Below, one piece after another: positions 4,756-41,582 of a stretch of 41,624 nt of DNA. This DNA is from Lachnospiraceae bacterium (GTDB lineage: Bacteria; Bacillota; Clostridia; Lachnospirales; Lachnospiraceae), in contig BLLT01000008.1 in assembly GCA_011958945.1 (NCBI GenBank), positions 1 to 41,624 of the forward strand, in the 5' to 3' direction. The position numbers and the translations under genes are program-made. Every line of letters starts with the position of its first letter. Position 1 is the stretch's first letter. The notes beneath the pieces are model-generated. The model was not told where the DNA came from. It was given only the letters and a program-made list of their open reading frames with translations, and did no database searches.

Positions 4756-6525
4756 ATGAAATTTTTATTAGTGGGGATAAATGCAAAATATATACATTCC
4801 AATCCGGCAGTATATAGCCTGAAAGCATATGCGGGGGAAGGATATGAGAAAGAAATTGAAATAGCGGAGTATACCATTAATAATCGTTTGGAAGAGGTGC
4901 TTTCCGGTATTTATGAACGGTGTCCGGATGTGGCGGCCTTTTCTTGTTATATATGGAATTGGAATTTTGTGCGGGAATTGACGGAAGAACTGCATAAGAT
5001 AAAACCTCAGCTGCCCATATGGCTGGGCGGGCCGGAGGTATCTTTTGATGCGGAGGAAATTTTGAGGGCATGCCCCTGGATTACGGGAATTATGATAGGG
5101 GAGGGGGAGGAGACGTTTCGGGAACTGTTGGATTATTATAAAGGCGGAGATTCAAAAGAAGGAAGTATCGGTTTAGAAGATATTCAGGGAATTGTCTGCC
5201 GGATAGGGAATAGGATACTCAGGACGGAAGAGAGGGCGCCGATGGATATGAACCGGCTGCCATTCCTGTATCGGGATAGGGAAAATTTTGAAAACCGGAT
5301 TATATATTACGAATCCAGCAGGGGATGCCCCTTCCGGTGCAGCTATTGTTTATCGGCGATTGATAAAAGTGTCAGGTTTCGGGATATGGATACGGTGAAA
5401 CGGGAACTGCAGTTTTTCCTGGACGAAGCTGTCGCACAGGTAAAATTTGTGGACAGGACATTTAACTGCAGCCATTCCCACGCCATGGAAATATGGGAAT
5501 ACATACATCGCCATGACAATGGAATCACCAATTTCCATTTCGAAATAGCGGCGGAGAAGTTGGATGAGGAAGAAATCAATTTGCTGGGAAAGATGCGCCC
5601 GGGGCTGGTACAGCTGGAAATCGGCGTACAGTCCGCCAACCCCGAAACTTTATCGGAAATCAACCGGCAGGCGGACATGGGCCGGCTGGAAAAAATCGTG
5701 AATAGCATCCGCAAGGGAGGGAACGTACACCTTCATCTGGATTTGATTGCCGGTCTGCCCTTTGAGGGATATGAAAGCTTCGGGAAATCTTTTGATGTGG
5801 TATATTCCATGAAGCCGGAGCAATTACAGCTGGGCTTCCTGAAAGTTCTCAAGGGTTCTCCGATGCACGAAAGGGCACAGGGGTACGGCATAAAATATAC
5901 TTCCCGGCCGCCCTATGAGGTGTTATGTACCAGCTGGCTTTCCTTTGAGGAAATATGCCGTTTGAAACGGATAGAGGAAGTGGTGGAACTGTATTATAAC
6001 AGCAGCCAGTTCACCCATACACTGTCCGTATTGGAGAAGTCCTTTGACGGAGCTTTTGCGATGTTTGAGAAACTGGCGGAATATTATAAGGAGAAAGGAT
6101 ATTTTACCAATAATCCTTCCCGCGTTTACCGGTATGAGGTTTTGCTGGAATTTGCGTTAATTTATGGGAATGGGGAGGAAGGGCTTTATAAAGAACTATT
6201 AACATACGATATATACCTTAGGGAAAACATGAAGAGCCGGCCGGGGTTTGCCCGGAACCTGGAGGGGTATAAAGAGCATTTTCGGGAGTTTTACAACGAT
6301 GCTTTTCGGTTGAGGGAGATACTTCCTGGCTATGAAGAATTTCAGCCGAGACAGATTGCGAGGATGACCCATGTGGAGATGTTCTCCTATCCTGTTTGGG
6401 AAAGCGGAGGGGGAGCCGAATGGAAAATGGAGAAACTTCCAAAGCAGCGTATGGTGCTGTTCGATTATAGGAAACGCAGCCCGCTGACTAATGAAGCGGA
6501 AGTGAGGGTGGTGGAGGAGGCATAA
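4756..6525 (+). CDS. B12-binding-domain radical SAM protein (DUF4080 type)
   Basis: This 589-residue class B-like radical SAM enzyme is expected to be cytosolic and to use cobalamin plus a 4Fe-4S cluster. The N-terminal Rossmann-type B12-binding region spans about residues 1-145, with LWLGGPEVSFD-like and IGEGEETF patterns. The radical SAM cluster motif CPFRCSYC (CxxxCxxC) is near residue 195. The core continues with EIGVQSANPETL and HLDLIAGLPFEG, and a DUF4080-type C-terminal region follows. The B12-binding part lacks a clear DxHxxG lower-ligand motif, so cobalamin may bind base-off without histidine. The substrate is unknown and the neighbours do not reveal one. GGAG at 4741-4744 supports the ATG at 4756. 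Confidence 0.85.
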   Translation: MKFLLVGINAKYIHSNPAVYSLKAYAGEGYEKEIEIAEYTINNRLEEVLSGIYERCPDVAAFSCYIWNWNFVRELTEELHKIKPQLPIWLGGPEVSFDAEEILRACPWITGIMIGEGEETFRELLDYYKGGDSKEGSIGLEDIQGIVCRIGNRILRTEERAPMDMNRLPFLYRDRENFENRIIYYESSRGCPFRCSYCLSAIDKSVRFRDMDTVKRELQFFLDEAVAQVKFVDRTFNCSHSHAMEIWEYIHRHDNGITNFHFEIAAEKLDEEEINLLGKMRPGLVQLEIGVQSANPETLSEINRQADMGRLEKIVNSIRKGGNVHLHLDLIAGLPFEGYESFGKSFDVVYSMKPEQLQLGFLKVLKGSPMHERAQGYGIKYTSRPPYEVLCTSWLSFEEICRLKRIEEVVELYYNSSQFTHTLSVLEKSFDGAFAMFEKLAEYYKEKGYFTNNPSRVYRYEVLLEFALIYGNGEEGLYKELLTYDIYLRENMKSRPGFARNLEGYKEHFREFYNDAFRLREILPGYEEFQPRQIARMTHVEMFSYPVWESGGGAEWKMEKLPKQRMVLFDYRKRSPLTNEAEVRVVEEA

Positions 6526-31200: not shown

Positions 31201-31247
31201 TAAAAAGTGAGAGAACTGGCTTTTTCCTGGGAGGGGTGAAGGAACTC

Positions 31248-33443
31248 ATGGAAGATGGAATGGAAGGGAAAACGAGAGAACGCGTTAAGGGGAAGCTGCC
31301 CTTAAGGCTTATGGCAGCGGCGTTGTTTATAATTATAGCTGTAGTAGTTTCCACATGGTGGCTGATTGAAACGTCTCAGACCGCTTCGGGGGAATCTGTT
31401 TATAATGTAAGCGAGTTTTATCTGAAGGAACTTTCGGAGCAGACAAGCCGCCTGATGCAGGCCAACCTCAATGAATGGGAGCGGGAACTTCATGCGGCTA
31501 TGAAGGGGATGGGGGAGGAAGAATTAAAGGATTTCAATTCACTGCAGGATTATATTGCCAAAGTGGAGGGGGATAATCAGTTCGATTTTTTTGCAGTAGT
31601 GGATGAGGACAGTACGGCTTATGTCACGGATGGCGCAGCTTCTGCCGCAATACAATGGCTGTTGGACAAAAACGGAAATTCTTTGAAGGAATACTTTCAA
31701 GATTCCTCTATCTCCGTTGGCGGTAATGAGGAAACCGGAAAAATGATATTTATTTCGCTCCCGTCCACCGGGCTCATGTTTGGCGGGAAAGAATTGATTG
31801 GCAGTATTGCTGGGCTTAATACGGATGCATTGGTTGAAAAATTGTTTTTGCAGGATGAAGAGGTCCTTACTTTTTCGAGCGTAATAACAGTGGAGGGGGA
31901 CTATGTTACAAGGGTGCCCCACACTCATTTAAAAGAAGACAGCAACGTATTCTCTGCTTTATCTACCCAGGCCGAATTTGAAGAAGAGTCGGCGTTAGAT
32001 TGGATGGAAGAGGACATTCAAAAGGGAAAGAGCGGCATGATTAAATATAATTTAGAGGACTTGCTGCACTATACCTATTATGCGCCGATTGAGAATACGC
32101 AGTGGTATAGCGTTACGGTCATGCATTATAGTACGATTAGCGAGGATGTGGAGATTGTCCGCAGCACGATTGTCCGCAACAGCAGGATTCAAATGGTGTT
32201 GATTCTGGTAATGCTGGGAGGGCTGTTTTGCATTTATCTTGCGGAAAGACGTAAAACCGAAGCTATGCGGCTGGAAAAAGTGCATGCAGAGGAACGCAGC
32301 AAGTCCAAAAGCTTATTCCTCTTTAATATGTCTCATGATATACGCACCCCGATGAATGCGATTATTGGATTTGCAGAACTGGCTTTGCAGAATGAGGGCG
32401 ATAAGGAGCGGGTGCACGATTATTTGGGCAAAATAAAAACATCCAGCGGGCATCTGCTTAGCCTGCTGAATGATATCCTCTACATGAGCAGCATAGAAAG
32501 CGGAAAAATACATCTGGAACCGGAAAACTGCAGTCTTTCCGATATTTTTCATGATTTGGAGATTACGGTGCAAAGCCAGGTGCAGGAAAAGCGGCAAAAG
32601 TTATCTATGAACATATCCCGTGTGACGGATATGGACATTTTTTGTGATAAATCCCGTTTAAGCCTGGTTTTGCTGAATCTTTTAAGCAATGCGATTAAAT
32701 TTACGCCGGAAGAGGGCGAAATTTCAATAACTGCTGTTCAGGAAGAAGGCGGACAGGAAGGATATGGCTCTTATGAATTTAAGGTAAAGGATACCGGAAT
32801 CGGTATGTCGCCTGAGTTTGTAAAACATGTCTTTGAGCCTTTTGAGAGGGAGAGGACTTCTACGGTCAGCAAGACGCAGGGAACAGGGCTGGGCATGCCA
32901 ATCGCCAAAAGGATTATTGACATTATGGGCGGAACCATAGAGGTGGATACAGCGCCTGAGAAGGGAACGGAGTATACGGTCAGGGTAAGGCTGAAAGTCC
33001 AGGAGAAAGAATCGCTGCATGAGGAACTGACACAAGAGAGCGGAGAAGAAGGACAGGGATTTCATGGGAAAAGAATCCTTCTGGTAGAGGATAATGAACT
33101 GAACCGTGAGATTGCGATGGAAATCCTTAAGGAGTATGGGCTGGAAGTAGAGGAGGCGGAAGATGGCACAGTGGCCGTACAGATGATGGCGGACAGCCAG
33201 CCGGGATATTATGACTTAATTCTAATGGACATCCAGATGCCGCTGATGAACGGCTATGAGGCAGCAAGGGCAATCAGAGGAATGGAAAACGAGGAATTGG
33301 CCAATATTCCGATTATTGCGCTCACAGCCAATGTATCCGACAAAGATAAGCAGGAGGCATTGGAAAGCGGAATGAATGGGCATGCTGCAAAACCGATTGA
33401 TGTATGCAAACTAATGATGACATTGGAAAAATTTTTGGGCTGA
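31248..33443 (+). CDS. Membrane-bound hybrid sensor histidine kinase with receiver domain
   Basis: The 731-residue protein is bounded by two helices (about 16-41 and 312-333), with an extracellular Cache-like sensor between them. The HisKA box NMSHDIRTPMNAIIGF carries the phospho-acceptor near His363. The ATPase domain has NLLSNAIKFTPEEG, KDTGIGMSPEF and GTGLGMPIAKR. A receiver domain follows (ILLVEDNELNREIA, acceptor near Asp661 in LMDIQMPLMNG, KPID). Start ATG 31248 is preceded by GGGAGGGG and AAGGA; GTG 31236 overlaps the ribosome-binding site. No separate response regulator with an output domain is adjacent, so the partner is encoded elsewhere. It is close enough to glnA for co-transcription. 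Confidence 0.92.
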   Translation: MEDGMEGKTRERVKGKLPLRLMAAALFIIIAVVVSTWWLIETSQTASGESVYNVSEFYLKELSEQTSRLMQANLNEWERELHAAMKGMGEEELKDFNSLQDYIAKVEGDNQFDFFAVVDEDSTAYVTDGAASAAIQWLLDKNGNSLKEYFQDSSISVGGNEETGKMIFISLPSTGLMFGGKELIGSIAGLNTDALVEKLFLQDEEVLTFSSVITVEGDYVTRVPHTHLKEDSNVFSALSTQAEFEEESALDWMEEDIQKGKSGMIKYNLEDLLHYTYYAPIENTQWYSVTVMHYSTISEDVEIVRSTIVRNSRIQMVLILVMLGGLFCIYLAERRKTEAMRLEKVHAEERSKSKSLFLFNMSHDIRTPMNAIIGFAELALQNEGDKERVHDYLGKIKTSSGHLLSLLNDILYMSSIESGKIHLEPENCSLSDIFHDLEITVQSQVQEKRQKLSMNISRVTDMDIFCDKSRLSLVLLNLLSNAIKFTPEEGEISITAVQEEGGQEGYGSYEFKVKDTGIGMSPEFVKHVFEPFERERTSTVSKTQGTGLGMPIAKRIIDIMGGTIEVDTAPEKGTEYTVRVRLKVQEKESLHEELTQESGEEGQGFHGKRILLVEDNELNREIAMEILKEYGLEVEEAEDGTVAVQMMADSQPGYYDLILMDIQMPLMNGYEAARAIRGMENEELANIPIIALTANVSDKDKQEALESGMNGHAAKPIDVCKLMMTLEKFLG

Positions 33444-33682: not shown

Positions 33683-33711
33683 TTGACTTTTAAATTGTTT
33701 GGTTATAGAAT
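33683..33711 (+). promoter_or_regulatory. Promoter of the phosphonate/surface-polymer operon
   Basis: TTGACT (33683-33688), a 17-bp spacer and TAGAAT (33706-33711) form a good sigma-A promoter. It begins one base after the long hairpin and leaves a leader of about 105 nt before the small gene at 33828. Confidence 0.7.
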
Positions 33712-33827: not shown

Positions 33828-34085
33828 ATGAAAAGAAAAAAGGGACTTGCAGTCCTTAAATTTATGTATTTTTTTACCTGCTTCTTTTTCCTGTTTAGCA
33901 ATTATGCGCATGCATATATTGACCCGTCAGCAGTTACCTATGTAATACAGGCTGTAGCAGGCGTATGTATAGCGGTAGGTGCGGCATGCACCGTTTACAG
34001 GCATAAGATAGCGAAGTTTTTCCGCAAAATGAAGAAAAAGCACAGCAAGAAGCAGAGCAATAAGGAAAAGGAATCCAATGAATAG
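33828..34085 (+). CDS. Small secreted/membrane protein with AYIDPS motif
   Basis: The 85-residue protein starts with a basic signal-like segment (KRKKGLAVLKFMYFFTCFFF, cleavage or anchoring near YAHA). It continues with AYIDPSAVTYVIQAVAG, a second hydrophobic helix, and ends in a lysine-rich cytoplasmic-type tail. Small proteins with the AYIDPxxxxY pattern are often found beside polysaccharide and teichoic-acid genes, though I know of no assigned role. AAGGAGGAAGACT supports ATG 33828. It overlaps the YidC-fusion gene by 8 bp, so the two are coupled and the products probably act together. The longer frame from 33741 adds non-family sequence. Confidence 0.78.
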   Translation: MKRKKGLAVLKFMYFFTCFFFLFSNYAHAYIDPSAVTYVIQAVAGVCIAVGAACTVYRHKIAKFFRKMKKKHSKKQSNKEKESNE

Positions 34086-36021
34086 TATAATTAATTTGAT
34101 TGGCGATGCCTTGGGATGGCTGATGTATTTCAGCTATAATTTTTTGCAGGATTATTTTTGGGCGATTTTATTTTTCACCTTTTTAACGAAGATTGTATTG
34201 TTTCCGGTTTCTCTTATGGTGCAGAAAAATTCGATTAAGATGGTGAAATTACAGCCGGAAATTAATTTTATTAAAGCAAAGTATTTTGGAAACAGCGAAA
34301 AGATATCGGAAGAGCAATATGAATTATACAAAAGGGAGCACTATCAGCCGTTAGCTGACCTGATTCCCTTAATCCTCCAGCTGGTTTTGCTGATGGGGGT
34401 TATCAATGTGATAAATGACCCGGCCAGGCATATTTTCCGGTCAGGAGCAGGAACTTTGGATACCATGGCGTTGGGGATGGATTTATCTTCCATACCGGCA
34501 GAAACCGGGGGGATTACATTTTTAATTCCTCTTATAGCCGCCCTTTCGGCCTGGTTTATGTGCTTTATACAGAATCATATCAATGTGCTTCAATCGGAGC
34601 AGAGCAAGATAAATCAATATGGCACTATGATATTGTCCATCGGTTTATCTTTATACTTAGGCTTTTTTGTAAAAACGGGGGTTGGCATCTATTGGACATG
34701 CAGCAACCTTCTTTCTGTTGCCCAGCTGTATTTGCTGAATATCCTTATGAATCCCAGGAAATATATTGACTATGATGCATTGGAAAAGAGCAGGAAGGAA
34801 CTGGAGGAAAGTTCTGCTTTTTATAAATCTTCTGCCAAGAAATTATTTGAAAAAGATCCTTACCGGAAGCGGGAGAAGGCTGATTATAAACGTTTTTTTA
34901 AGGACTATGAGATGCAGATAATGTTTTATTCCGAAAAAAATGGGTTTTACAAATATTTTCAGAATATTATCGAATATCTGCTGGAAAATACAGATGTGGT
35001 TATTAACTATGTGACCAGCGACCCGGAGGATAGGGTTTTTCAGATGGCAAGCGACAGGTTTCGTCCATTTTACATCGGAGAGCACAAGTTAATCGTCCTT
35101 ATGATGAAGGTGGAAGCGGATATTGTAGTGATGACAACGCCCGATTTGGAAAACTTCCATATTAAAAGGTCTCTGGTGCGTAAGGACAACGAATATATTT
35201 ATGTTCCCCATGATGTGAACAGCCCTAACCTTACGTTCCACAAAGATGCGCTGGACCATTTCGATACGATTTTTTCTTCCGGATATTTGTGTACGGAGGA
35301 ACTTCGTAAAAGGGAAGAGATGTACCATCTGCCCAAAAAGAATATTATACCATGGGGTTCAGGCGTCATCGACAATATGATTCAGTCATATGAAAAGATG
35401 GAAAAGCGTAACAAAACGGCAAAGGAAATACTGATTGCACCTTCATGGCAGAAGGATAATATTCTTTCCTCCTGCATCGAAGAAATCCTGGATTCCCTGG
35501 ATGGGCTGGGATATAATATTATTGTCAGGCCCCATCCCCAGTTCGTTCGCCACGAAGCCGGCAGGCTGGAGCAACTGCGCCAGAAATACCAAATGGATTC
35601 CCGCAGCGATATGGAACTGCAGACGGATTTTTCCTCCAACAATACCGTATACGAAGCGGATTTGGTAATTACGGACTGGTCGAGTATTGCGTTTGAATAT
35701 TCTTTTGCCACCTTGAAGCCGGCTTTGTTTATCAATACGCCTATGAAGGTGATGAATGAAGATTATAAGGAATTAGGCATTACACCGATTGATGTGGAAC
35801 TTCGCAGCGAAATTGGCAAAAGTATTGATTTGGACAATCTGAAGGCATTGCCGGAGGTGGTTCATGAACTGTTAAGCAGCAGCCAATTTTCCAGTGACAG
35901 CCTGAAGGCGATTCGGGAAAAATATATCTACAACATCGGTGCCAGCAGCCAGGCCGGCGGTGATTATATTATAGAAAGGCTGCATTACTTTGAGGAAAAG
36001 CATAAAGAAGAGGACGACTGA
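34078..36021 (+). CDS. Fusion of YidC/Oxa1-like membrane domain with CDP-glycerol glycerophosphotransferase-like domain
   Basis: Residues 1-235 resemble YidC/Oxa1: AILFFTFLTKIVLFPVSLMV, then the charged hairpin KNSIKMVKLQPEINFIKAKY and PLILQLVLLMGVINVI, with five or so membrane helices. The groove arginine of YidC is replaced by Lys (FLTKIVLFP). After a charged linker, residues 280-640 resemble TagF/TarF-type transferases (EHKLIVLMMKVEADIVVMTT, VPHDVNSPNL, IIVRPHPQF, ADLVITDWSSIAFEYS). These normally transfer polyol phosphates from CDP-alcohols to surface polymers. The fusion puts a membrane-lipid-handling scaffold on a transferase. It overlaps the small gene upstream and is followed by phosphonate genes, which suggests transfer of a CDP-activated phosphonate or glycerol unit. 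Confidence 0.85.
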   Translation: MNSIINLIGDALGWLMYFSYNFLQDYFWAILFFTFLTKIVLFPVSLMVQKNSIKMVKLQPEINFIKAKYFGNSEKISEEQYELYKREHYQPLADLIPLILQLVLLMGVINVINDPARHIFRSGAGTLDTMALGMDLSSIPAETGGITFLIPLIAALSAWFMCFIQNHINVLQSEQSKINQYGTMILSIGLSLYLGFFVKTGVGIYWTCSNLLSVAQLYLLNILMNPRKYIDYDALEKSRKELEESSAFYKSSAKKLFEKDPYRKREKADYKRFFKDYEMQIMFYSEKNGFYKYFQNIIEYLLENTDVVINYVTSDPEDRVFQMASDRFRPFYIGEHKLIVLMMKVEADIVVMTTPDLENFHIKRSLVRKDNEYIYVPHDVNSPNLTFHKDALDHFDTIFSSGYLCTEELRKREEMYHLPKKNIIPWGSGVIDNMIQSYEKMEKRNKTAKEILIAPSWQKDNILSSCIEEILDSLDGLGYNIIVRPHPQFVRHEAGRLEQLRQKYQMDSRSDMELQTDFSSNNTVYEADLVITDWSSIAFEYSFATLKPALFINTPMKVMNEDYKELGITPIDVELRSEIGKSIDLDNLKALPEVVHELLSSSQFSSDSLKAIREKYIYNIGASSQAGGDYIIERLHYFEEKHKEEDD

Positions 36022-36077
36022 TGGCAGTTTTTTCCTTATAGGATTCTGGTATCAAAAGCCTTGGCTGCGGAAAGGAT

Positions 36078-37259
36078 ATGGATATTTGTATGCAGACAGA
36101 ACACATAAATGGGGGCAAAGGACAACAGGGGTATATCAAAAGAAATGTCCTGTTAAATCCTGGCCCTGCAACAACCACCGATACAGTAAAGATGGCTCAG
36201 GTAGTGCCCGATATCTGCCCAAGGGAAAAGGAATTTGCCTCCATGATGAAGCAGATGAGGGAGGATTTGGTCCGTATCGTCCATGGGGATTTGGAGAAGT
36301 ATACATCGGTTCTTTTCTGCGGCTCCGGAACTATCAATATTGATATATGCCTGAATTCCCTCCTGCCGGAAGGAAAGAAGATATTAGTGATAAATAATGG
36401 TGCATACAGTGCCCGGGCTGTGGAGATATGTGAATATTATCAGCTGCCTTTTATGAATCTGCAGTTTCCCATGGATGAACTGCCGGATTTGGATTTGGTG
36501 GAAAGGGTATTGAAAGAAAACCCCGATATTGGGTTGGTTCATACGACACACAATGAGACGGGAACGGGTATTTTGAACCCCATCCGGGAAATCGGAGCGC
36601 TGGTTCATAAATATGATGCGGTATTTACCGTGGATACTACATCTACCTACGCTATGAGGCCCATTCATATAGAAGAAGATAATATTGATTTTTGCATGGC
36701 TTCCGCGCAAAAAGGGCTTATGGCAATGACCGGCCTGTCATTTATTGTCGGGAACAGGGAAATGATTGAGAAGTCGGCGGGATATCCGAAGCGCTCTTAT
36801 TACTGCAATCTGTATTTGCAGTATCATTTCTTCGAAACCACCGGAGAAATGCATTTTACTCCTCCCGTTCAGACTATATATGCCGCAAGGCAGGCAATTG
36901 ACGAATATTTTGAAGAAGGGGAAGAGGCGAAATGGCAGCGGCATTTAAGCGTCTTTCATGCCATTCATGAAGGGCTTGAAAAGCTGGGTTTTCATGATAT
37001 TATAAAGAGGGAATGGCAGGCAGGCCTTGTGGTGGCCGTCAGATACCCGGACGATGCTAACTGGGATTTTGAAAAAGTTCATGATTATTGTTATGAGAGA
37101 GGATTTACTATATATCCGGGAAAGATAGCTTCTCAGAGCACCTTCCGCTTATGTGCCCTGGGCGCTATTACGGCGAAGGATATTGAAGACTTTTTCCGGG
37201 TATTTGAAGAGGCATTAAGGAACTTGAATGTAGAAATTCCGATTTGCTATGAAGATTAA
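36078..37259 (+). CDS. phnW: 2-Aminoethylphosphonate aminotransferase (class V, PhnW/AepZ-like)
   Basis: This PLP enzyme interconverts phosphonoacetaldehyde and 2-aminoethylphosphonate (AEP). The family opening is LLNPGPATTTDTVKMAQVVP and DICPREKEF. The substrate and PLP region includes FCGSGTINIDICL and VHTTHNETGTGILNP, and the cofactor lysine is in ASAQKGLMAMTGLSF. In a setting with PEP mutase it should run in the biosynthetic direction. ATG 36078 has AAAGG two bases upstream; ATG 36090 is an alternative. The gene starts 56 bp after the YidC-fusion gene. A phosphonopyruvate aminotransferase role (to phosphonoalanine) cannot be ruled out, since no decarboxylase gene is seen. Confidence 0.85.
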   Translation: MDICMQTEHINGGKGQQGYIKRNVLLNPGPATTTDTVKMAQVVPDICPREKEFASMMKQMREDLVRIVHGDLEKYTSVLFCGSGTINIDICLNSLLPEGKKILVINNGAYSARAVEICEYYQLPFMNLQFPMDELPDLDLVERVLKENPDIGLVHTTHNETGTGILNPIREIGALVHKYDAVFTVDTTSTYAMRPIHIEEDNIDFCMASAQKGLMAMTGLSFIVGNREMIEKSAGYPKRSYYCNLYLQYHFFETTGEMHFTPPVQTIYAARQAIDEYFEEGEEAKWQRHLSVFHAIHEGLEKLGFHDIIKREWQAGLVVAVRYPDDANWDFEKVHDYCYERGFTIYPGKIASQSTFRLCALGAITAKDIEDFFRVFEEALRNLNVEIPICYED

Positions 37260-37268
37260 CCTGTGAAG

Positions 37269-37362
37269 CAGGTTTGCGCCTGCGTTGTATCCAAAAACTT
37301 GCCATGGGCAAACTTCGGCAATGCTGGGCTATACTTGCGGCGCAGAAATGGAGTGAAAAATG
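37269..37362 (+). repeat. Structured start-codon-proximal repeat, copy D
   Basis: CAGGTTTGCG (37269-37278) pairs imperfectly with CAAAAACTTG (37292-37301). The loop segment CTGCGTTGT (37280-37288) pairs over nine positions with GCGGCGCAG (37337-37345), including three G-T wobbles. About 20 nt are inserted between the halves compared with copy C. The 3' end, CGCAGAAATGG then GTGAAAAATG, places the last ATG (37360) as the start of the PEP mutase gene. It fills the whole gap after phnW. Confidence 0.72.
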
Positions 37363-38655
37363 AGTAAAGTATATGCATGCTTTTGCACGGACATTATACA
37401 TGAGGGGCATCTTAATATTTTGAAGGAGGCCAATAAATATGGAGATGTGATCGTTGGAATCCTCAGCGATAGGGCAATGATAAAGTATAACCGTTTTCCC
37501 ACCATTTCCATGGAGGAACGGAAGAAAATAGTGGAAGAGACAGGCTTGGTGTCGGAGGTGACCGTGCAGGATGAAATTATGTACGATACCATCATTGGGA
37601 GATTAAAGCCCGACTATGTCATTCATGGCGACAACTGGTGCAAAGGCCCGGAAAGCGCCATTAGAATCAATGTGATAAAGAACCTGAACCGGTATGGCGG
37701 AAAGCTGATTGAGGTGGGCTATACTTATAATGAAAACGTGAAAAAAATCGATGATAATATGAAGGAAAAGTTGGCTATGCCGGAATTTAGGAGGAAAAGG
37801 CTTCGCCAGCTTTTGAAGTTGTGCCCTATTGTGAAAGCCATAGAAACCCACAGCGGCCTGACAGGCCTGATTGCGGAGAAGACAATCGTGGAGCACAACG
37901 GGGAATTCGACCAGTTTGATGCCATGTGGCTGTCCAGCCTTTGTGATTCTACGGCGAAGGGAAAGCCGGATATTGAACTGGTGGATATGTCGTCCAGGAT
38001 ACGTACGATAGACGATGTTATGGAGGTGACTACTAAGCCTATTATTCTGGACGGGGATACCGGTGGGCTGGTAGAACATTTTATTTATAATATCCGTACA
38101 CTGGAACGCATGGGAGTGTCGGCGGTTATTATAGAGGACAAAACAGGGCTTAAAAAGAATTCGCTGTTCGGCACAGAGGTGGCTCAGACACAGGATTCTA
38201 TCGAAAATTTTTGTGAAAAAATCAGTGCGGGGAAAAATGCCCAGAGAACTGAGGAATTTATGATCATTGCCCGGATTGAAAGCTTGATTTTGGAAAAAGG
38301 GCAGGAAGACGCCTTAGAGAGGGCTTTGGCTTATGTAAAGGCGGGGGCGGATGGTATTATGATTCATTCCAGGAAGAAGTCGCCGGATGAGATTTTTGCA
38401 TTCTGCGATGCTTTCCGGAAGGAAGACCCGGATACTCCGATTGTTGTAGTTCCCACATCTTTTAACAGTGTAACGGAGACGGAATTAAAACAACATGGGG
38501 TGAATATTGTGATTTACGCAAATCAACTGACACGCAGCGCTTTTCCGGCAATGCAGAATACGGCTATGGAAATATTGAAGAACCATAGGGCGCTGGAGGT
38601 GGATGACAGGTTGATGCCCTTTAAAGAAATTATTACGTTGATTGATGATATTTGA
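37360..38655 (+). CDS. Phosphoenolpyruvate mutase with N-terminal cytidylyltransferase domain
   Basis: PEP mutase forms the carbon-phosphorus bond by rearranging phosphoenolpyruvate to phosphonopyruvate. Residues 1-140 are a nucleotidyltransferase of the glycerol-3-phosphate cytidylyltransferase type, with H14-E-G-H17 in CTDIIHEGHL and ISMEERKKIV. Residues 150-431 are PepM, with the diagnostic EDK-x5-NS at 259-268 (EDKTGLKKNS), ILDGDTGG and ARIESLI. The same domain order is known from Fom1 of fosfomycin biosynthesis, where the cytidylyltransferase acts on a later phosphonate intermediate. The gene starts directly at the end of repeat copy D. No phosphonopyruvate decarboxylase, normally needed to pull this unfavourable reaction, is in the window. 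Confidence 0.9.
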   Translation: MSKVYACFCTDIIHEGHLNILKEANKYGDVIVGILSDRAMIKYNRFPTISMEERKKIVEETGLVSEVTVQDEIMYDTIIGRLKPDYVIHGDNWCKGPESAIRINVIKNLNRYGGKLIEVGYTYNENVKKIDDNMKEKLAMPEFRRKRLRQLLKLCPIVKAIETHSGLTGLIAEKTIVEHNGEFDQFDAMWLSSLCDSTAKGKPDIELVDMSSRIRTIDDVMEVTTKPIILDGDTGGLVEHFIYNIRTLERMGVSAVIIEDKTGLKKNSLFGTEVAQTQDSIENFCEKISAGKNAQRTEEFMIIARIESLILEKGQEDALERALAYVKAGADGIMIHSRKKSPDEIFAFCDAFRKEDPDTPIVVVPTSFNSVTETELKQHGVNIVIYANQLTRSAFPAMQNTAMEILKNHRALEVDDRLMPFKEIITLIDDI

Positions 38656-38791
38656 CGGACGATGTATTATGTACGGGAGTGTTCGGGTGGAAAAGTGTGA
38701 AACATTTGGTTGGGAGAATATTCAGCCGGGGTTCTTGGTTTCGCAATTACCTAATGACATTCTCTGTAGGGAAGGAGAATGGCGGTAACGT

Positions 38792-39511
38792 ATGGATAGG
38801 AAAATCGGCATAATTATGGCGGCAGGAATCGGAAGCAGGATGCGCCCTATTACGGAAACGATTCCCAAACCTTTGGTAAAGGTATTTGGGAAACCTTTGA
38901 TTGAAACGGTGATTGACGGCCTTTTGGCGGCCGGCGTGGGGGATATCTATGTGGTGGTCGGTTATTTGAAGGAGAGTTTCGCCGTTCTGCCCAAGAAGTA
39001 CCCGCAGATAAAGCTGGTGGACAATAACGATTACTTGGAAAAGAATAATATTTCTTCTATATATGCGGCAAAAGATGTGCTGGGCACGGCAGATTGTTTC
39101 ATCTGCGAGGCGGATCTGCTGATTTCGGATTCGTCGATTTTTATGAAAAACCTGGATGAGTCCTGTTATTTCGGGAAAATGGTGATGGGCAATTCCGATG
39201 ATTGGGTATTCGAATTGGAGGATGATTATATTTCCAGGGTGAAAAAGGGCGGGCAGGACACCTACAATATGGTGGGCATCTCTTATTTTACGAAGTCGGA
39301 CAGCCTGGTCCTTCGGGATAAAATCGTGGAAGCCTATGGGCAGGAGGAAAGTTCCGATCTGTTCTGGGATGAAGTGGTGGATGCGAATTTGCAGGAACTG
39401 CGGCTGAGGGTGGAGCCCGTGGAAGAAGGGCAGATTGTGGAAATCGATACGGTGGAGGAACTGCTGGCGATAGACCCTGGTGCAGCTTTGCAGGGAAAGC
39501 TTGCAGATTGA
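38792..39511 (+). CDS. CTP-dependent nucleotidyltransferase, LicC/PntC-like (phosphocholine or AEP cytidylyltransferase)
   Basis: The 239-residue protein opens with GIIMAAGIGSRMRPITETIPKPLV, the sugar-nucleotidyltransferase signature (here written across GxGxRxxPxTxxxPKP). It has NNISSIYAAKDVL and CEADLLISD, typical of LicC-type phosphocholine cytidylyltransferases and the related AEP cytidylyltransferase PntC. Next to PepM and AEP aminotransferase the best guess is CTP plus AEP giving CDP/CMP-AEP, an activated headgroup. GGCGGT at 5-nt spacing precedes the ATG. It is 136 bp after the PepM gene with no terminator between, and 9 bp before the membrane transferase gene. Choline as substrate remains possible. 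Confidence 0.8.
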   Translation: MDRKIGIIMAAGIGSRMRPITETIPKPLVKVFGKPLIETVIDGLLAAGVGDIYVVVGYLKESFAVLPKKYPQIKLVDNNDYLEKNNISSIYAAKDVLGTADCFICEADLLISDSSIFMKNLDESCYFGKMVMGNSDDWVFELEDDYISRVKKGGQDTYNMVGISYFTKSDSLVLRDKIVEAYGQEESSDLFWDEVVDANLQELRLRVEPVEEGQIVEIDTVEELLAIDPGAALQGKLAD

Positions 39512-39520
39512 GGAAAGGGC

Positions 39521-41260
39521 ATGGTTATTGATATGAAAGAGAAAATATTTACAAAAGAAAGAATAAAGAATATTGGAATAGGTTTTCTGATATGCTTTTT
39601 GTTTACATTTATGCTGATGATTTTTGGGCCTGCAGAAATTTATTTCGTAAATGTGGCGGAGTTTAAGTTTGTGTATGGCGAATTCGTGTGGATTTTATCC
39701 GGGATTGCGCTTGTTGGCGCGGTTTTGGCGGGTCTTATTTCGGCTTTTCTTCCGGCAGCAGCCAGGAAAATTCTGTGGTCTGTCCTGTTTGGATTATCGA
39801 TAGCCGGCTATGCGCAGGTTATGTTTATCAATGAAGGCTTGGATTTGCTGGGAATGAACCCGGAAGGTTATCAGGTAGAGAGCGGGCAGGCGGCAGTCAA
39901 TGGCATTATATGGCTGGTGATAGTGGCGCTGGTGACTGCTTTTTCCTTTTGGAAGGAAAAAATCTGGCAGAGCCTGGTTTGCTTTGGGGCGGTTTTTCTA
40001 ATCGGTATCCAGTCGGTGGCGTGGGTTTCCCTAATGCTGTCAGCGGAGGATGCGGCATATAAATATGAGGAAGGCGAGTGGTATCTTTCCGGGGAAAGCC
40101 AGTTTATGGTATCGGCCAATAAAAATATTATTGTAATTGTGCTGGATTATTTCAGCAATCAATACGTAGAGCCGGCTATGGAAAAATATCCCGATTTGCT
40201 GGATTGTATGAATGATTTTACTTACTATAACAATACGGACTGCACATATTTCGGCACTTATCCGTCCATTGCCCATATTTTATCCGGCTCGGAGGTGGAC
40301 CCTTCTATCCCGGTCAATGAGTGGACATCAAAGATATGGCAGGATGAAAAGGCACAGGGGTTTTATCAGGCATTGCGGGATCAGGATTATGTGTGCAATA
40401 TTTATACCCCGGACAGCAATATGATTTGCGGGATGAATAGCCCGGAGATTTTAAAACAATTGTTCTCTAATGTTACCAATGAAGGCCAGGATTTTAATGT
40501 GGATTATGGCCTGCTTACTAAGACTATGATTAAAATGTCTGGCTACCGTATGTTTCCATACGCGGTAAAGCCATACCTTTATACGAATGTGGATGAATAT
40601 TCGGAAATCATGGTGTCCAAAAGCCGGGGCGTAAGCCATGAGAACCACCGCTATTACGGTCATTTGACGGAGGAGCGCCTAAAGGCGGACGATGAGTCGA
40701 ATTATTATATTTTCCAGCATCTGTCGGGAGCCCATAATTATAATATTGACGAAAACTGTCAATTGAAAGAGGAATCTACCTTGGAAGAAACCGCAAAGGG
40801 GTGTATGGTGCTTGTGGAGGAATATTTTAATCAGTTAAAGGAACTGGGGGTTTATGATGACGCCACGATTATCGTGACATCGGATCATGGCGGCCCGAGG
40901 GATTCCCAGGTAGTATTTTTCATGAAAAATGCCAATGAAACCCATGATGAGATGTTGGTGAGCAGCGCGCCCATTAGTTTGAGCGAACTGCAGGCTACCA
41001 TTGCCCAGGCTGCCGGGATTGATTATACGCCATATGGGCCGGCGGTGAGCGACATTTCGCCAGAACAGCCCCGTGAGAGGACGGTGTGGGTCCGCCTATA
41101 CGTGGATACCCTCCCCTCAGTGCCGAAATATTCCGGGGAAGGGGAAAGCGTATCCAATGCTTACTGCGGATTTACTTATACGGGGGATATTGATGATTTA
41201 TTGGAAAAATATGATGCTGGGCCGGATATTGTAATTCCGGAGACGGATGGGTTTTTCTAA
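39521..41260 (+). CDS. Membrane-anchored alkaline-phosphatase-superfamily (sulfatase/LtaS/EptA-like) protein
   Basis: The 579-residue protein has four to five N-terminal helices (about 15-180), followed by an extracytoplasmic AlkP-superfamily domain. NIIVIVLDYFSNQ holds the first metal Asp, and YFGTYPSIAHILSG carries the likely nucleophile Thr. FQHLSGAHNYN and VTSDHGGPRD hold the later metal ligands. This layout is shared by LtaS, EptA and OpgE-type phospho-headgroup transferases. It ends the operon and could move a phosphoglycerol, phosphoethanolamine or phosphonate headgroup on the surface polymer, or hydrolyse one. AGGA with 6-nt spacing serves ATG 39521; ATG 39533 is also possible. The terminator is at 41392-41443. 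Confidence 0.85.
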   Translation: MVIDMKEKIFTKERIKNIGIGFLICFLFTFMLMIFGPAEIYFVNVAEFKFVYGEFVWILSGIALVGAVLAGLISAFLPAAARKILWSVLFGLSIAGYAQVMFINEGLDLLGMNPEGYQVESGQAAVNGIIWLVIVALVTAFSFWKEKIWQSLVCFGAVFLIGIQSVAWVSLMLSAEDAAYKYEEGEWYLSGESQFMVSANKNIIVIVLDYFSNQYVEPAMEKYPDLLDCMNDFTYYNNTDCTYFGTYPSIAHILSGSEVDPSIPVNEWTSKIWQDEKAQGFYQALRDQDYVCNIYTPDSNMICGMNSPEILKQLFSNVTNEGQDFNVDYGLLTKTMIKMSGYRMFPYAVKPYLYTNVDEYSEIMVSKSRGVSHENHRYYGHLTEERLKADDESNYYIFQHLSGAHNYNIDENCQLKEESTLEETAKGCMVLVEEYFNQLKELGVYDDATIIVTSDHGGPRDSQVVFFMKNANETHDEMLVSSAPISLSELQATIAQAAGIDYTPYGPAVSDISPEQPRERTVWVRLYVDTLPSVPKYSGEGESVSNAYCGFTYTGDIDDLLEKYDAGPDIVIPETDGFF

Positions 41261-41391
41261 ATTATTCCGATATTTTATTCCTGCGGGCAACGAGCCAAGT
41301 GCCGTGCTTAGCATCTTGGCGAATGCCGCGTGGCTTATCTGCTCTTATCTTTATATGGATAAAATTAGAATAAAGAAATTGTCTGGGAGAG

Positions 41392-41443
41392 AATCCCGCT
41401 TCACTGAATGGATTTATGAAAAGCAGTGGAAGCGGGATTTTTT
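41392..41443 (+). terminator. Rho-independent terminator of the phosphonate/surface-polymer operon
   Basis: AATCCCGCTTCACTG (41392-41406) pairs with CAGTGGAAGCGGGATT (41424-41439) with one bulged base, and six T residues end at 41443. The final 364 bp of the window (41261-41624) otherwise hold no supported gene. Only this terminator and a promoter at the very end are visible. Confidence 0.88.
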
Positions 41444-41582
41444 GCAATGGATTTGGAGAAATTTTGGGGAAAATATAAAATGGTTGAAATTGCACCAAAA
41501 TGAGCAAAATAGAATTAGAAAGCCGAAAGCTGAGGGGTTGTGCAGATAAAAATTCGAATAAAATTTGAAGCTTTGTTTGAGG

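Follow-up and report, generated by a model that had tools for sequence, protein, structure and literature searches.

We analyzed a 41,624-nucleotide stretch of DNA (hereafter the window), which corresponds to contig C8 in a draft genome of 5.07 Mb whose nearest named relatives are Lachnospiraceae (GenBank assembly GCA_011958945.1, contig BLLT01000008.1), and which carries at 33828–41260 a six-gene cassette predicted to make 2-aminoethylphosphonate (AEP) and to place it on the cell surface. Open reading frame (ORF) and family scans found all six genes where an earlier reading of the sequence (the original prediction) had put them, on the + strand and with the same ends. Their products are A (33828–34085), an 85-residue microprotein with an AYIDPS motif, recognized by its ORF, Shine-Dalgarno sequence, hydropathy and homologue alignment; B (34078–36021), a YidC-like membrane domain (residues 26–221) fused to a TagF-like (PF04464) transferase domain (residues about 277–641); C (36078–37259), an AEP aminotransferase; D (37360–38655), a Fom1-like cytidylyltransferase (CT) domain fused to phosphoenolpyruvate (PEP) mutase (PepM); E (38792–39511), a LicC/PntC-like cytidylyltransferase; and F (39521–41260), five N-terminal hydrophobic helices followed by a sulfatase-fold domain. 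The enzyme activities given to these proteins are predicted from their sequences. Genes A and B share an 8-base overlap, and the remaining genes are separated by 56 (B–C), 100 (C–D), 136 (D–E) and 9 bases (E–F). Because the set recurs in relatives, the six genes are not grouped by chance. The promoter proposed at 33683 matches 10 of 12 consensus bases (TTGACT-17-TAGAAT, 33683–33711, + strand), but is only plausible because promoter-like sites are at chance level in the region (23 found versus 19.0 ± 4.1 expected). The terminator proposed near 41392 was not listed by a consensus scan for loops of 3–8, although the stretch 41385–41450 (+ strand) holds a hairpin with a T run (-27.7 kcal/mol, z -5.9).

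C, D and E would supply the activated head group. D scored 416 bits on the PEP mutase model TIGR02320 (cut-off 319.55) and 47.7 bits on CTP_transf_like (cut-off 21), and it carries HEGH and EDKTGLKKNS, the latter in agreement with the PepM signature EDKxxxxxNS; the best solved match of its CT domain was 5x3d (95.4 bits), which we take to be Fom1. C scored 456.9 bits on the AEP aminotransferase model TIGR03301 PhnW-AepZ (cut-off 360.8). E matched NTP_transferase (51.1 bits, cut-off 21.2; PF00483/PF12804), and its best solved relatives were LicC (1jyk, 123.2 bits) and then PntC (6pd1, 51.7 bits); E is a candidate AEP cytidylyltransferase. Phosphonoalanine was considered as the end product, the cassette lacking a phosphonopyruvate decarboxylase (Ppd), and was set aside once a Ppd of 460 bits (cut-off 312.5) turned up on contig C26. 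Because the window genome encodes this enzyme, the pathway to AEP is complete on paper. Within the genus, Ppd scored over the cut-off in 5 of 5 genomes with PepM (one of which, G007, has a stop inside PepM) versus 1 of 11 others (Fisher p = 0.0014). PEP would be converted into phosphonopyruvate by the PepM domain of D, phosphonopyruvate into phosphonoacetaldehyde by Ppd, phosphonoacetaldehyde into AEP by C, and AEP into CMP-AEP by E, with the N-terminal domain of D as a possible second cytidylyltransferase. These family matches make it very probable that the cassette genome produces CMP-AEP, and the CDP-activated AEP of the original prediction stands in this form, as the likely output of C, D and E with Ppd encoded elsewhere. 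This half of the cassette is known chemistry: Rice et al. 2019 (PMC6697681) report that approximately 60% of PepM proteins carry a fused domain of the CT type and that clusters may add a second, separate enzyme, and therefore the combination of a CT-PepM fusion with a separate LicC-like enzyme is not new. The same paper places a PepM with a Fom1-type CT domain in fosfomycin biosynthesis, which would fit a cassette for a soluble phosphonate natural product. We regard this alternative as extremely unlikely, since no tailoring oxidase, ligase or exporter was named among the six genes, three of the six products are membrane proteins, and A, B and F are co-distributed.

B matched both 60KD_IMP (108.9 bits, cut-off 35) and Glyphos_transf (35.2 bits, cut-off 22.1), and its fold matched TagF/TarL as well as YidC. 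From position and motif, H378 of B may correspond to H444 of TagF and H300 of TarL (numbers from structure entry titles). To compare B across genomes, 103 stretches were examined (the window, L043–L064 and L096–L175; 556 relatives of B were confirmed and 80 kept), from which duplicates (L096, L144 and L158) were removed and 7 stretches left out because B was interrupted, truncated at a contig end, below the threshold or missed by the ORF caller (L044, L060, L062, L063, L064, L109 and L159), giving 93 distinct loci. In strain 526-35 (G005), B is split into two frames of 140 and 518 amino acids (L044 6374–8316, L109 10001–11943), either a real split or a sequencing error. A YidC-TagF fusion with LicC-like and LicD-like genes was also found in L164, a record titled Candidatus Saccharibacteria, by transfer or wrong binning. 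A lone, diverged TagF-like gene without the YidC part is present at the PepM loci L082 (6354–7646), L083 (4664–5980) and L185 (8726–10105), and the genomes of the first two (G276 and G019, respectively) lack A. These two genomes speak for an alternative in which A or F is inserted by a genuine insertase, the YidC-like domain, which otherwise merely anchors the TagF-like domain. Two further points in its favor are that this domain scored 95.7 bits on TIGR03592 (cut-off 84.3) and that the residue aligned with the groove arginine of E. coli YidC is positive in all 93 loci (lysine in 90, arginine in 3). However, an ordinary YidC of about 440 amino acids is encoded in 13 of the 16 genus genomes, including that of the window, and it would be unusual for a transferase to be fused to an insertase that serves a single 85-residue client; we consider this explanation very unlikely.

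A begins with an ATG preceded by GGAGG and contains two hydrophobic stretches (residues 6–24 and 36–54 by hydropathy) and a basic tail. By eye, the first stretch appears signal-like, ending in AHA ahead of YIDPS. Across 24 homologues, Y30, D32, P33, Y38, Q41, G51 and A52 are invariant and S34 is alanine in some; A matched no Pfam family over the cut-off. In 16 of 93 loci, including 8 of the 15 in the LicC-CobD-like class described below, a signal-peptidase (S26)-like gene is located no more than 10 kb from B (e.g., L063 4053–4544), and its product may process A.

F matched the Sulfatase family (26.6 bits, cut-off 25), and alignment A2 places T246 at the nucleophile position together with D209, D455 and H456. 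Among 71 F-like ORFs (duplicates included), T246 is conserved in 70, with a gap in the other, and D455 and H456 in all. A structural model (predicted local distance difference test score 88.4) and hydropathy both gave five hydrophobic helices, and VIA is part of the evidence for F. LtaS and EptA use a threonine nucleophile, and F shares their architecture of five transmembrane helices, a sulfatase domain and this residue. If the C-terminus of B lies inside, as that of YidC does, the five helices would then put the sulfatase-fold domain of F outside. F scored 14.6 bits on the lipoteichoic acid (LTA) synthase model NF053595 (cut-off 970), and LtaS was absent among the 50 matches listed in the fold search, which excludes nothing. 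F as a housekeeping LTA synthase was set aside, F being confined to B genomes.

The distribution of these proteins was analyzed in a panel of 299 genomes of the family, of which 16 encode full-length B. The A profile matched the same 16 genomes and gave one marginal match (E = 8.6e-4) among the 283 others, and F (threshold E ≤ 1e-30) was found in 13 of the 16 versus 2 of the 283, one of these two (G067) having it beside a lone TagF-like gene; these counts are to be read knowing that both profiles were built from B-adjacent genes, which favours such matches, and that the panel genomes share descent. PepM is encoded in 10 of the 16 B genomes, adjoining B in 8, versus 22 of the 283 genomes without B. 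Around B, a six-frame recount placed A in 87 of 93 loci, and F was seen in 53 of the 93, a count that includes loci at contig ends. In addition, YidC-TagF-sulfatase (B-F) fusions occur in L149, L154 and L169, and an A-F fusion in L053. Beyond the family, a search of 391 genomes of the class at E ≤ 1e-60 found B in 5, of which 3 belong to the window's own family. Plasmid spread of B was considered and rejected, the only matches being to the YidC part with 35% coverage, in 2 records. The cassette genes are thus conserved together in relatives, the neighbourhood check that the original prediction had set; what it overlooked is that the conserved core consists of A, B and F, a donor-swappable trio.

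The genes within 8 kb of B define its module. They were of the AEP type at 40 of the 93 loci, a fusion of LicC with a CobD-like Aminotran_1_2 part at 15, class-V aminotransferase at 5, choline kinase at 4 and LicC only at 3, with none seen at 26; the greedy ORF caller hid some genes, including PepM in L182, L183 and L120/L196. Within the 40 AEP loci, PepM was present in 39, the AEP aminotransferase in 38, Ppd in 36 and PntC in 35; Ppd was missing at four, namely the window, L043 and two loci with stretches that end early (L106 and L122). Carriers of these modules include Lachnospiraceae bacterium A4 (L104, AEP module) and COE1 (L168, LicC-CobD-like module), and no PepM was found in the latter. 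Against the threonine-phosphate decarboxylase model, the CobD-like part (L047) reached 172.8 bits, and because this is under the cut-off of 290.55 we can only infer a phosphoethanolamine or aminopropanol phosphate head group for this class. Explaining the AEP label on the tree of B takes 13 changes, against 30.2 in shuffles, none of which (0 of 500) came out as low (none-seen loci counted as other), indicating that modules are inherited yet repeatedly exchanged. AEP is hence one of several head-group modules paired with A, B and F. L188 (5756–13800, in the genome of L160) has A, B, LicC-like, CT-PepM, iron-type alcohol dehydrogenase (Fe-ADH), Ppd and F genes in a row, without the AEP aminotransferase, and looks like a hydroxyethylphosphonate version; its B reads HYPLS from position 378, as does that of L056, which also has Fe-ADH. 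In L133 (7181–8539), a cytidylyltransferase fused to a GFO_IDH_MocA oxidoreductase lies beside B and a class-V aminotransferase, and its head group is unassigned.

The residue following the invariant H378 of B covaries with the module. Residue 379 is not glycine in any of the 40 AEP loci (aspartate in 30, alanine in 7, tyrosine in 2 and glutamate in 1) and is glycine in 23 of 24 loci of three other classes (15/15 LicC-CobD-like, 5/5 class-V and 3/4 choline kinase); the three bare-LicC loci have aspartate, glycine and cysteine. When the tree was built with the surrounding columns removed, AEP and LicC-CobD-like loci differed in this way in 6 of 6 independent pairs, with a p of 0.031 that is uncorrected although column 379 was chosen from a scan of all columns. 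Against all other module classes, 5.9 pairs went the same way, 0 the opposite way and 2.1 showed no difference. This covariation suggests that the activated donor is read by B. A held-out test used 22 genomes without a decisive module near B, omitting L169, which has no residue 379, and leaving out the bare-LicC L162 and L164. PepM was found in 12 of 14 non-glycine versus 3 of 7 glycine genomes, the same direction but not significant (p = 0.12); with five panel loci of this kind added, all with glycine, the latter became 7 of 12 (p = 0.19), and without L120, whose PepM is actually 3 kb from B, the former became 11 of 13 (p = 0.12). In this search, none of the 10 genomes that carry other modules yielded a PepM, and all 4 AEP controls did. 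Weighing against B as the reader of the donor, L127, L174 and L175 have glycine yet an AEP module elsewhere, in a stretch where no TagF-like or LicD gene was seen. The covariation is clean where the module adjoins B and unproven elsewhere.

The known alternative to such a role for B is a LicD-type phosphotransferase (PF04991), which was found neither in the cassette nor on the window's contig. In a search of 40 genomes, PepM had a LicD gene within 10 kb in none of the 10 genomes where it adjoins B and in 10 of the 24 where it does not (p = 0.017, a count limited by contig ends), and a local LicD profile matched 1 of the 93 B stretches (L164). Two LicD genes lie on contig C50 of the window genome (12323–14022) and may form a second head-group tailoring locus. 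These genes, like the PF04464 match and the TagF/TarL fold of B, would also fit the proposal that B builds a polyol-phosphate chain from CDP-glycerol or CDP-ribitol, with AEP added by F or a distant LicD, as in the original prediction. We consider this distinctly unlikely, since no glycerol-3-phosphate cytidylyltransferase scored over the cut-off in the cassette (TIGR01518: 29.1 bits for D versus 165.4), LicD is seldom near B, and residue 379 tracks the module. The genomic context instead argues for CMP-AEP, and not CDP-glycerol or CDP-ribitol, as the predicted substrate of the TagF-like domain, and that B is a transferase reading CMP-AEP is, in our judgment, fairly probable.

The flanks of the AEP cassettes do not share a glycan theme, a result from 98 genes of 36 AEP loci in 71 groups, of which 60 were scanned (among the families listed, 25 of 95). 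Glycos_transf_2 matched 6 of 60 representatives. The flanking genes encode HlyD, a prolyl-tRNA synthetase, a peptidase, a rhamnosidase and a protein resembling aspartokinase, and one group adds an O-antigen-ligase-like (Wzy_C) protein. Because no theme is shared, the acceptor (a glycan, teichoic acid or lipid) is probably made elsewhere. The original prediction was thus probably right about AEP as the product and right about conservation, but its polyol-phosphate acceptor is unsupported. If the acceptor were diacylglycerol or a glycolipid, B would load it to form an AEP-bearing phosphonolipid, the YidC-like domain would equilibrate it between leaflets and F would recycle or trim it, with no glycan or teichoic acid involved. 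This is unlikely: in other branches, genes resembling sugar-nucleotide dehydratases or epimerases are close to B (10 of 22 panel stretches), the Wzy_C-like gene flanks one group of AEP loci, F has the threonine nucleophile of LtaS/EptA, and characterized TagF relatives act on polymers. B adjoins genes for large YfhO-like membrane proteins in L174 (5089–7731, YfhO/PgfM-like) and L175 (14267–16864, by similarity), hinting at a link of this branch to teichoic acid or glycoprotein. In the window, a hybrid histidine kinase/response regulator gene (31236–33443) lies immediately upstream of the cassette, itself after a glutamine synthetase gene, and a B12-binding radical S-adenosylmethionine protein with DUF4080 is encoded at 4756–6525.

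Taken together, we favor, with a probability of roughly 0.6, a phosphonyl-tailoring cassette that stands by itself and uses a new type of transfer machine. B would replace LicD, its TagF-like domain (taken as cytoplasmic) moving AEP from CMP-AEP onto a membrane-bound acceptor; both this topology and the use of CMP-AEP are predicted. We guess that the YidC-like domain and A hold the product or pass it across the membrane. F, with its active site expected outside, would deliver AEP or an AEP-bearing unit to the final surface acceptor via a phosphono-threonine intermediate. We infer the transfer to the cell surface, and the membrane passage, the order of B and then F, and the identity of the acceptor are conjecture. 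YidC scrambles lipids in liposomes in vitro, according to a preprint (PMC10491306), and lipid passage through the YidC-like domain of B is likewise a guess. A relay from B to F across the membrane is a tentative proposal. Its general form, in which the TagF-like domain charges a lipid or A with AEP, phosphoethanolamine, phosphocholine or hydroxyethylphosphonate from a CMP or CDP donor, the YidC-like groove serves as passage and F takes over outside, is possible but doubtful. The abstract of PMC6697681 calls the steps that follow C-P bond formation in surface phosphonate tailoring enigmatic. For the transfer step in Clostridia, A, B and F offer a concrete candidate, which brings residue 379 of B as a target for mutation, a microprotein partner and an outside partner. 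The trio and its swapped modules may allow surface zwitterions (AEP, phosphoethanolamine or phosphocholine) to be predicted from sequence in many uncultured Lachnospiraceae. C. difficile flagellin carries AEP, yet a survey cited in PMC8861647 found no pepM in C. difficile; the cassette names anaerobes possibly supplying AEP, and a link to this flagellin is speculation.

The original prediction knew of no described system with this set. This does not hold for the chemistry of C, D and E, whereas searches of the open-licence literature found no description of an A/B/F machine or of the use of a YidC fold in polymer decoration, and queries for the YidC-glycerophosphotransferase fusion, the AYIDP motif and Lachnospiraceae AEP phosphonate returned only off-topic matches or none. 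The Pnt pathway (PntC of Treponema denticola and Atopobium rimae; PMC6697681) shares with the cassette the CT-PEP mutase, the AEP aminotransferase, a separate LicC-like enzyme and the CMP-AEP head group, but its clusters are said to carry LicD-like phosphotransferases or glycosyltransferases where the cassette, without LicD, has B, A and F. The C-terminal domain of B shares with TagF/TarL (PF04464) the family, the fold, the conserved histidine and the RPHP and D-W-S motifs; unlike them, B is fused to a YidC-like domain and lies beside LicC/Fom1-type cytidylyltransferases, without a CDP-glycerol synthase. Compared with YidC/Oxa1 insertases, B is an extra copy fused to a transferase, and any insertase role is putative. 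F differs from LtaS/EptA/YejM in falling far below the LTA synthase model and in its co-distribution with B. A similar logic is that of the Dlt system (DltB, the microprotein DltX and DltD; PMC12148441), which also combines a membrane protein, a small membrane protein whose short motif is invariant and an extracellular transferase. Dlt uses acyl chemistry and other protein families, and A would be a group carrier by analogy; if true, the relay would be the phospho(no) counterpart of DltB-DltX-DltD.

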